NCBI GenBank assembly: GCA_025450255.1
Contig: JANWHV010000249.1
Span: 1-11,705 of the forward strand
DNA from: Chloroflexota bacterium
GTDB taxonomy: Bacteria; Chloroflexota; UBA5177; JANWHV01
DNA: 11,705 nt
Direction: 5' to 3'
The position numbers and the translations under genes were made by a program. Positions within the stretch are counted from its first letter, which is position 1. Each line of letters begins with the position of its first letter. The notes under the pieces are model-generated. The model worked only from the letters and a program-made list of their open reading frames with translations. It ran no database searches and was not told where the DNA came from. Positions 4,937-7,447 of this stretch are shown one piece after another.

Positions 4937-5941
4937 CTACTTCGGTTTCCGCTTGCCGATAGGCGGCCGGACGCCGGAAAAGCGCTCCAACACCACTTCG
5001 GCCCGATCGGCCGCCGAGCCCAAATCGTCGCCCAGGTAGACTGCCGTGCCTTCGAGCAGATCGCGCAATCGCGCGTCACGCTTGAACGGTGGTCCGCCAT
5101 ACGTGAGGAGCACCGAGCCACATTCCGGCAGTCGCCGCAGACGGCGCAGTAGTTCGGTAAGCGAGGGAATGGTTTCCTCAGTCGCCGATGATAGGCAGAT
5201 TAACTGAGGATGTTTGCGTTGAATGGCGTCCGTCAGGGCCTCGAACGGCGTGTCGGCTCCCAGGTAGATGGCCCTCCAGCCGCGCCGGCGCAGAAGCAAG
5301 GCGAGCGCCATGGTGGGAATCTCGTGCTGGTCGCCAGGGCAGGCGCCGAGCAATGCAATGGGTTGATTATCGCCGCGCGAACCGCCTTCGAACGCCGCGA
5401 GTAGCCTGGCGCGTATCAGGCCGCTGCCGAAATGCTCGGCCGCTACCGAGGCCCGCCCTGCCGCCCAGGCGGCGCCGACCGCCGCCAGCGCGGGCAAGAT
5501 CACTTCCGCGAGCGCCAACTCGGGTCCGAAAAGGAAGAATGATTCGCTGAGCAGTCGATTGGCGGGCTCCTCATCCAGATTGATAAACGAGGCTGTCAAC
5601 GCGTCGCGAACATAGTGGCTTGCCTGGGTCGCGGGCGTGTCGTCATCGCCGCGCTCAGCGGGAGCGTCGTGGCTCTCGGCGAGCACAAGAGCGCAGGCGC
5701 GACTCGGAGGGGTGCCGCCACGCAACAATTGCTGCACGCGCCTGAGATGGGCGATATCCTCCGTCCCATACAGGCGATGGGTGCCGGCAGTTCGAGAGGG
5801 ACGTGGCAACCCATAGCGCCTCTCCCACGCCCGGAGAGTATGGATGCCTATGCCGGTCTGCTTCGCGACGACACGTATAGGATACAGACCCATTTCGCCG
5901 CAAGCGCCTTCTTCAGCCGCCGGCCCTTCTTCGTTTTCCAT
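4937..5941 (-). CDS. MerR-type HTH regulator with cobalamin-binding domain (CarH/LitR-like)
   Basis: The 334-residue product joins a MerR HTH (about 19-88; YPIRVVAKQTGIGIHTLRAW, then RRYGLP and THRLYG) to a helical B12 cap (about 105-180) and a Rossmann cobalamin-binding domain (about 194-325). It has the CarH signature Wx9EH (W159, E169, H170) and the DxH loop GDQH (203-206), where H206 is the expected lower axial cobalt ligand. CarH-type proteins bind adenosylcobalamin, repress DNA in the dark, and release it on light. The residue after W159 is Ala; in Thermus CarH that position is, as I recall, the His that forms the light adduct, so photochemistry may differ. The start at ATG 5941 is preferred because a promoter lies directly upstream and predicts a near-leaderless mRNA. 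A GTG at 5992 would lie inside an inverted repeat; ATG 5893 has weak SD support. Target genes are not obvious here. Confidence 0.9.
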   Translation of the reverse strand: MENEEGPAAEEGACGEMGLYPIRVVAKQTGIGIHTLRAWERRYGLPRPSRTAGTHRLYGTEDIAHLRRVQQLLRGGTPPSRACALVLAESHDAPAERGDDDTPATQASHYVRDALTASFINLDEEPANRLLSESFFLFGPELALAEVILPALAAVGAAWAAGRASVAAEHFGSGLIRARLLAAFEGGSRGDNQPIALLGACPGDQHEIPTMALALLLRRRGWRAIYLGADTPFEALTDAIQRKHPQLICLSSATEETIPSLTELLRRLRRLPECGSVLLTYGGPPFKRDARLRDLLEGTAVYLGDDLGSAADRAEVVLERFSGVRPPIGKRKPK

Positions 5942-5951
5942 CGCTAGTCCA

Positions 5952-5980
5952 GCTATACCTGACAAGGGCCAAGCCGTCAA
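5952..5980 (-). promoter_or_regulatory. Sigma70-type promoter of the CarH-like regulator
   Basis: Reading the minus strand, TTGACG (5980-5975; 5 of 6 to consensus) is followed by a 17-bp spacer and TATAGC (5957-5952; 4 of 6). The start of transcription would fall near 5945, leaving about 4 nt before ATG 5941. One arm of the 19-bp inverted repeat fills the spacer, so a bound protein would block or remodel the promoter. Confidence 0.7.
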
Positions 5981-6028
5981 CGATTTGTCCACGTTTTCTG
6001 GACCGGCACACGGCTTGGCCCTTGTCAG
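5959..6028. repeat. 19-bp perfect inverted repeat, probable operator
   Basis: CTGACAAGGGCCAAGCCGT (5959-5977) is perfectly inverted at 6010-6028. The arms are 51 bp apart centre to centre, close to five helical turns. Pairing continues outward with two mismatches (5952-5957 with 6030-6035). Inside the 32-base loop is a smaller hairpin, GTCCA/TGGAC (5987-5991 and 5998-6002). No T-run follows on either strand, so it is not a standard terminator. The inner arm overlaps the regulator promoter, which suggests an autoregulatory operator. It could also act as a strong RNA hairpin in readthrough transcripts from the kinase gene. Confidence 0.7.
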
Positions 6029-6079
6029 CTAGAGCGACAAGTCACGTTCCATCAGGGGGAAACGAACGGTGGGAGCTGG

Positions 6080-7447
6080 TCAGTCGTCCCCGGCCCGCAT
6101 CAAGCGCCGCATGGGGACCTGATGCGTCTGCCCAGCCCGGAATATGCTGACGCTCCAACAGACGATTGCCGCCAATAGCGTGAAGACGACAACGCCATCG
6201 ATCAGCGCGCTGCCGCCGCTCGCGGCCGACGTAACGGCGGCCCAGAAAGGAAGCGCGATGGCAAGACGCAGCAGCAGCAAGCGCCGCGCTTGTCTGACCA
6301 TTGCCGTGACGTTTCCACCCTGCGCCGACCGCTTCCTCAGGCTCAGCGCGAGCAACGGTTGCAGATACAGCACGGCCGGAATATACGCGCTGAGCAGCAG
6401 CGCCGGGCCAGACCACGAGGGCTGCCCATGTCCGGCGAGCCACGCGTGCATCCAGTTGAAGCAGACAAGCGACAGGGGCGTGGTCACGCCCGGCAACACG
6501 GTCAGCCAGAAGTAAAAGGGCGCGGTAGTGGCGTGCATCACCTCAGGCGTGGCAGGCAGCGCCTCGCGGAGCATCGCCCTCATGTCCAGGGCCCGGGCAA
6601 AGCGGTCCGAGGGCGAGAGCGACAGTGCTCGGTCTATGGCGCGTGCTGTTTTCTCCGAGACATCGGGGCGGAGCTGGAGCACGGGCGGGTGCCGGAACGG
6701 ATCTTGCTGCTCGGGGTTGTACCCGGTGAGCAGGCGGTGGAGCGTGGCGCCAAGCGCGTACATATCACTTCGCACATCGGCGAGGCCCTGGTATTGCTCG
6801 GGCGACGCATAGCCCGGCGTGCCGACCGCGGTGCCGACCTTGCCCGGGGATTCGCGGCGCGCGACGCCAAAATCGACCAGAACCAGCTCACCAGTGTCGG
6901 CTCGCTCCAGCACATTCGCGGGCTTCAGGTCGCGGAAGATAACTGGCTCGGGTTGGTTGTGCAAAAAATGAAGGACGCCACAGAGCTCGATCCCCCAGCG
7001 CAAGACCTGGCTTTCCGTGACCGAGCCCGATCGCGCGCGCATTTCAAGGCTCGGTCCTGGTATTGCCTCCATCACGAGATAGCTCCGCTCGTCGGTCGAG
7101 AAGGAAGCGTGCAGAGCCGGGAGAGAGTGGTGCCTGAGCGTGCTGAGGAGATGGGCCTCGCGCAGAAACCAACGGTGCGCCTCTGCCCGTTCGGCGGGGG
7201 GCAACGCCGCAAACACGAGTTCCTTCAGCACCATTGCCGTCTCGCCGCGCGCCGTGTCTACCACGCGATACACCGTACTCATCGGCCCACGATGCACGGT
7301 GTTGAGCACGCGATATCTGCCGGCAACCATCTCACCGACTGGGAGCGCGGATTGGCCGCCCTGATTCAGGATCAGCGCGACCGGACAGGCCCCCTGGTCG
7401 GCGTGGTGCAACCCGCATGATGCGCAAGGGGCAACCAAAGCCAGCAT
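6080..7447 (-). CDS. Membrane Ser/Thr protein kinase with N-terminal Cys-rich motif
   Basis: This 455-residue Hanks-type kinase would phosphorylate Ser/Thr on cytoplasmic proteins. The N-terminus has C8, C11 and C21 (CASCG...CP), a short possible zinc-binding motif. The kinase domain spans about 44-297: ATP lysine K75, helix C E97, catalytic loop FRDLKPAN (171-178, with D173 and N178; Phe replaces the usual His), DFG 192-194 and SPE 215-217 in GTPGYASPEQYQG. The glycine loop is poor: the first and third Gly are replaced by His52 and Ser57, and only Gly54 remains. Four hydrophobic segments follow (about 309-332, 348-370, 388-408, 415-436), so the protein is integral in the membrane. ATG 7447 has an SD (AAGGAGA, 7452-7458) 5 nt before it. 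It resembles the second kinase in this window. The substrate is unknown; the B12 regulator lies downstream with its own promoter. Confidence 0.93.
   Translation of the reverse strand: MLALVAPCASCGLHHADQGACPVALILNQGGQSALPVGEMVAGRYRVLNTVHRGPMSTVYRVVDTARGETAMVLKELVFAALPPAERAEAHRWFLREAHLLSTLRHHSLPALHASFSTDERSYLVMEAIPGPSLEMRARSGSVTESQVLRWGIELCGVLHFLHNQPEPVIFRDLKPANVLERADTGELVLVDFGVARRESPGKVGTAVGTPGYASPEQYQGLADVRSDMYALGATLHRLLTGYNPEQQDPFRHPPVLQLRPDVSEKTARAIDRALSLSPSDRFARALDMRAMLREALPATPEVMHATTAPFYFWLTVLPGVTTPLSLVCFNWMHAWLAGHGQPSWSGPALLLSAYIPAVLYLQPLLALSLRKRSAQGGNVTAMVRQARRLLLLRLAIALPFWAAVTSAASGGSALIDGVVVFTLLAAIVCWSVSIFRAGQTHQVPMRRLMRAGDD

Follow-up and report, generated by a model that had tools for sequence, protein, structure and literature searches.

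The operators characterised for CarH proteins are tandem 11-bp repeats of the form nnnnTnnACAn that overlap the -35 or the -10 element, according to the available parts of two publications (PMC9304148, PMC8156234). In the open-access literature searched, no paper combined CarH, B12 and operator with the name Chloroflexi, and CarH-type operators in Chloroflexota may be undescribed. The window considered here, by which we mean the whole 11,705-nucleotide stretch of DNA that was analysed, carries the gene for a CarH-like regulator and, at its promoter, a perfect inverted repeat with 19-bp arms. The case shows clearly how a perfect long palindrome at a promoter can mislead when conservation lies instead in a weaker-looking array next to it, and it shifts the focus from a repeat that is striking but private to short repeats, the probable operator, which recur upstream of the regulator genes in a sister clade (28 of 28 loci).

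The regulator and its promoter

The regulator combines a MerR DNA-binding domain with a helical and a Rossmann B12-binding domain, with matches above the cut-offs to PF13411, PF00376, PF02607 and PF02310, and the solved CarH structure 5c8d aligns with its residues 16-262 (E 1e-32). W159 and E169-H170, which form the Wx9EH motif, and D204-Q-H206, which includes the cobalt-ligating His, align with the same residues of 5c8d, and Wx9EH is matched in all 120 listed homologues. Since the score against the NCBIfam CarH equivalog is 169 bits, below the cut-off of 400, we call the protein CarH-like rather than CarH. The light-state cobalt ligand of Thermus CarH, His132, is missing and A160 stands in its place; His occurs at this position in 5 of the 120 listed homologues, so it does not define the wider group. 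The accessible text of a 2023 study describes His132 as important for light-driven disassembly and notes an earlier report in which a variant without it still disassembles (PMC10442372). As judged from these alignments, the regulator is CarH-like, and light sensing by it is putative. The homologues P0002 and P0003 are 82% and 74% identical to it, none of its relatives was found in viral contigs, and a Pfam scan of ten window proteins recognised zero carotenoid enzymes. The gene, its promoter and the gene upstream are placed as follows, L001 being a locus in an uncultured Chloroflexota genome.

4937-5941, minus strand: MerR / B12-binding_2 / B12-binding regulator, CarH-like, 334 aa, ATG start
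5952-5957, minus strand: -10 hexamer TATAGC, 17-bp spacer, identical in L001
5975-5980, minus strand: -35 hexamer TTGACG, identical in L001, also a degenerate third 11-bp repeat (T at 5980)
6080-7447, minus strand: protein kinase gene, co-directional and upstream, from which read-through would transcribe the inverted repeat as a hairpin

Read along the minus strand, TTGACG (5980-5975), the 17-bp spacer and TATAGC (5957-5952) are followed by 10 bases and the ATG at 5941. A plain consensus promoter scan of 5800-6200 returned 0 sites and left this promoter unlisted because it accepts only -10 hexamers that end in T. Around the -10 element, the window and L001 agree at every position of the stretch TGTCAGGTATAGCTG (5950-5964, minus strand), which includes TGTCAGG before the hexamer. 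The ORF caller had started the gene at a GTG at 5992, in an open frame that traverses the promoter. A GTG-started frame through the promoter is present in both genomes (L001:4750-4800, window 5942-5992), and the annotation of the public protein P0005 includes such an extension. We rejected this start: over the 17 codons from GTG to ATG the substitutions between the window and L001 number 3/5/3 by codon position, versus 112/78/219 over the 329 codons of the gene proper, which suggests that the extension is non-coding and makes the ATG at 5941 the likely start. The mRNA of the regulator would then be nearly leaderless.

The inverted repeat and its comparison with L001

The inverted repeat sits in the 138-bp gap between the regulator gene and the protein kinase gene. 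Its two arms, CTGACAAGGGCCAAGCCGT at 5959-5977 on the plus strand and the reverse complement at 6010-6028, are perfect over 19 bp and separated by a gap of 32, and their centres lie 51 bp apart.

5959-5977, no strand: downstream arm of the 19-bp repeat, covering the ACG of the -35 hexamer and most of the promoter spacer
6010-6028, no strand: upstream arm of the 19-bp repeat, counterpart absent in L001, probable origin as an inverted duplicate of the promoter core
5952-6035, no strand: extended inverted repeat with 26-nt arms (5952-5977 and 6010-6035), 24 of 26 positions matched (92%), the -10 hexamer within it
5987-6003, no strand: short dyad between the arms, GTCCA-N7-TGGAC, with the L001 form TTTGTCCA-N7-TGGACAAA

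This is the longest perfect inverted repeat of the window at any gap, the next longest having 13 bp, and it is far beyond chance, with 13 bp also the longest (gap at most 100) among 60 dinucleotide shuffles of the window. Its 18-mer core, with up to 3 mismatches allowed, is found within the window at the two arm sites only (0.02 expected), and an Rfam scan of the window at gathering scores returned zero families. To this point the first-pass annotation, drawn from the letters of the window, was accurate: the CarH-like regulator it named has the expected domains, its TTGACG/TATAGC promoter with a 17-bp spacer is backed by conservation in L001, and the perfect 19-bp repeat with arms offset by 51 bp is as it described. 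The arm that it placed in the 17-bp spacer does occupy the spacer and, as a refinement, extends over the ACG of the -35 hexamer.

A scan of species genomes with the regulator protein returned nothing, and a repeat of the scan with an alignment of 19 homologues returned 38 loci, one of which, L001, is a close orthologue with a regulator 61% identical to that of the window. Within the class of G001, which holds 7 genomes, G001 alone matched at 1e-60. The DnaA and ProB proteins of the window and L001 are 87% and 84% identical and the gene neighbourhood is largely common to both; no kinase ORF (of at least 150 aa) lies between proB and the regulator gene in L001. In an ungapped alignment from the ATG, 14 of the 63 positions of the promoter block (5942-6004) differ, versus 33 of the next 37 positions upstream and 77 of 115 fourfold sites in the regulator gene, a pattern that argues for a promoter held by selection. 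On this alignment the promoter is under selection, and the inverted repeat is no part of what is held.

The two arms fare differently in L001. Around the upstream arm the DNA aligns poorly, and an equivalent of the arm is absent. The downstream arm keeps its ends, ACGG and TGTCAG, which belong to the -35 hexamer and to the stretch before the -10 hexamer, with 7 of the 9 positions of its core changed; the Fisher p for this core, 0.00018, overstates the case because the limits of the core were set after the alignment had been seen. The longest inverted repeat at the L001 promoter has 8 bp. In the DNA-binding stretch Y20-Y58 the two regulators share 38 of 39 residues, so the same target would be expected in both, and the arm is unlikely to be that target. 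The comparison of the arms rests on one close relative, L001, and the repeat may be conserved in species closer than L001, such as those of the P0002 and P0003 homologues. As it stands, the 19-bp repeat looks like a lineage-private event, seen so far in one sequence only.

A candidate operator of 11-bp repeats

An array of TnnACA-type repeats is set between the arms and on the -35 hexamer, which supplies its third member. The other two members are the following.

5985-5995, minus strand: 11-bp CarH-type direct repeat, TGGACA (T at 5991), conserved in L001
5996-6006, minus strand: degenerate 11-bp repeat, TCCAGA (T at 6002), agreeing with 3 of 4 consensus letters, 2 of 4 in L001

TGGACA at 5991 is the only perfect TnnACA on either strand of 5942-6079, and none lies within the 19-bp arms. 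It stands exactly 11 bp upstream of TTGACG at 5980, with TCCAGA at 6002 another 11 bp up, and L001 has the same TGGACA and TTGACG boxes at the same distance from each other. Scored by consensus letters out of 4, the three repeats reach 3, 4 and 3 in the window and 2, 4 and 3 in L001, a weak array with one full repeat.

Across 400 Chloroflexota genomes the search found 82 matches, spread over 75 genomes and including that of L001 itself. Loci were available for the best 30 of the 82, namely that of L001, L048, which was left out (32 bases upstream), and 28 others; a further 20 of the other 52 matches were examined as more distant homologues. The array T..RCR-N5-TTGAC-N6-T..RCR is present within 450 bp upstream of the match in 28 of the 28 sister-clade loci with upstream DNA, where the pattern was widened and fixed after seeing the loci and the loci are related rather than independent. 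Elsewhere in 109,284 bases, on both strands, the same array occurs 0 times. Across the sister clade (L040-L068, for example L059 and L064) the sequence upstream of the regulator reads TGTGCR-N5-TTGACR-N5-TGTGCR, with the -35-like TTGACR in the center; this near-invariant array is of CarH type, with G replacing A in the outer half-sites.

The other loci (L002-L038) hold the array in 3 of 37 cases: close to the match in L010, and some 0.86 kb upstream of it in L006 and L008, where it perhaps belongs before another gene. Among the 20 more distant homologues, judged by three full T..RCR or 11 of 12 TnnACA letters and with TTGAC not required, an array lies upstream on the strand of the regulator in four (L096, L097, L100 and L104) and on the opposite strand in two (L102 and L108), and mononucleotide shuffles held an array in 4 of 1000 cases. 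A fifth distant array, in L107, was discounted because of its position within the match. In G001 the promoter core has 1 exact site, the promoter itself, and 8 sites at 2 mismatches; with these 9 sites versus 16 in the control, there is no sign of a regulon. The three-repeat pattern gave 11 matches in four genomes versus 9 in controls. A second array, TTTGCAATCTATTGACAAAG-N2-TGTACA, lies away from the regulator gene and is common to G118 and G238 (the genomes of L081 and L087); beyond the known regulator sites, this kind of sharing is seen once, with one site alone that looks common to both genomes.

Explanations weighed and related systems

We consider it reasonably probable that the locus is an autoregulated promoter of a CarH-like protein, with the 11-bp array as operator, to which a private template-switch copy of the promoter core has been added. 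The regulator would bind the array on the minus strand (T at 6002, 5991 and 5980), the last repeat of which is the -35 hexamer, and once bound it would keep RNA polymerase off, as reasoned from characterised CarH proteins; on this analysis the regulator probably represses its own promoter. The 26-bp promoter core, which spans the -10 hexamer and the region up to the ACG of the -35 hexamer, would have been duplicated as an inverted copy 32 bp further upstream. Template switching during replication is the simplest route to such a copy, in which two positions would have diverged since. Over the 26 promoter positions that reach from this ACG to the end of the -10 hexamer, the upstream arm agrees at 24, which is what a copied core would show, and since L001 has the ends of the downstream arm too, the source of the copy can be identified. 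Binding, repression, control by light or B12 and the copying event are all steps that we infer. Self-regulation by a CarH-like protein is plausible here through another, known kind of element than the long palindrome.

The first-pass annotation had proposed instead that the regulator binds both 19-bp arms, acts from the spacer to block the promoter and draws the intervening 51 bp into a loop. An arm does occupy the spacer, the site of classical MerR action, and the spacing is near five helical turns, although a DNA loop of 51 bp would be very short. The repeat is absent in L001 despite the near-identical DNA-binding residues and the conservation of the rest of the promoter, so that its presence upstream of orthologues fails as far as it could be followed; the arms lack a perfect CarH half-site; and within 200 bp around the operator none of the 28 sister-clade promoters has a perfect inverted repeat longer than 11 bp (gap at most 80). 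CarA was at first thought to use inverted repeats, but the available text of PMC9304148 suggests that it too reads direct rather than inverted ones. As in the window, a long perfect inverted repeat does occur at the promoter of a more distant homologue of the regulator, L092. This 17-bp repeat (L092:137-185, CAAAACCTTGACAAAAT, gap 15) has TTGACA in each arm and lies between the CarH-like regulator and a divergent gene of the FAD/amine-oxidase family (amine oxidoreductase in Pfam), which presumably resembles phytoene desaturase. Given these arms and the divergent gene, the arms may be two divergent copies of promoter and half-site, possibly back-to-back promoters with common half-sites. The L092 arms thus hold TTGACA as both -35 hexamer and TnnACA half-site beside a divergent gene, whereas those of the window have no full -35 hexamer, no perfect half-site and no divergent gene; going by these sequences, L092 is how an inverted repeat used by the regulator would look, and the window repeat looks otherwise. 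We therefore find looping between the arms not supported, and binding at them very unlikely. An RNA role for the repeat, in which a 19-bp stem in read-through transcripts from the kinase gene terminates the upstream mRNA or protects it, and keeps read-through away from the regulator, while selection keeps the arms perfect, also seems unlikely to us, though the strand does fold strongly over 5938-6079 (-63.1 kcal/mol against a shuffle mean of -43.6, z -5.2), the co-directional kinase gene ends 51 bp before the stem, and hairpins lie upstream of the operator in some homologues (14-bp arms in L097, 15-bp arms in L096). Of the GC-rich stem and T run that define an intrinsic terminator, the T run is absent after the stem; a terminator scan of 5800-6200 found 0 sites, with loops of 3-8 considered and the 32-nt loop thus beyond its reach; and L001 has no such kinase ORF. 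The stem lies upstream of the expected transcription start and would therefore be present in upstream read-through RNA only, where it is possible that it hinders read-through or protects an mRNA end. Rather improbable, in our judgement, is a combination in which the promoter-core copy has been co-opted, its stem (with the promoter spacer as 3' arm) blocking or processing kinase read-through RNA, so that a single stretch of DNA serves as RNA insulator and as CarH-controlled promoter; if true, CarH occupancy between the arms and read-through would be mutually exclusive, coupling transcription of the kinase gene to expression of the regulator.

The remaining alternatives concern the origin of the repeat. 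Long perfect terminal inverted repeats around a short interior are what a small MITE- or REP-like element with 19-bp ends, inserted at the promoter, would present, but the interior here is the conserved array and half of the -35 hexamer, also found in L001, and an insertion would therefore have had to bring them. Further copies of the arm are absent from the window, the 19-mer arm is found in G001 (up to 3 mismatches) at 2 places versus 1 in the control, and there were 0 hits for the 18-mer arm in viral contigs and 0 for the repeat region in plasmids and phages; such an insertion is in our view highly improbable. Equally improbable is a fold-back chimera introduced in the assembly of a metagenome contig: the protein database does hold a single contig for the regulator protein of the window (P0001), but such chimeras would not typically show 2 mismatches in 26 or a spacer with 32 bp unmatched, and recognisable genes lie on either side of the repeat.

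The favored explanation, a self-regulated promoter with a private inverted copy of its core, resembles known systems in both of its parts. According to the accessible part of a 2022 study (PMC8794818), RNA hairpins can arise and be maintained through template switching, and the quasipalindromes attributed to it there and in the available text of PMC7202029 share with the window a short-range inverted copy of a neighbouring stretch and perfect arms, with the difference that the event here is deduced from one relative. The sister-clade array of the Chloroflexota is centred on the -35 hexamer, whereas that of the window ends at it. With the CarH operators of Thermus, Bacillus and Myxococcales the window shares the 11-bp phasing, the TnnACA at 5991, the -35 hexamer as one of the repeats, a regulator of MerR/B12 type and the overlap with a promoter; it differs from them in having one full repeat, in lying at the regulator's own promoter and in that a carotenoid gene was not recognised among the ten proteins.
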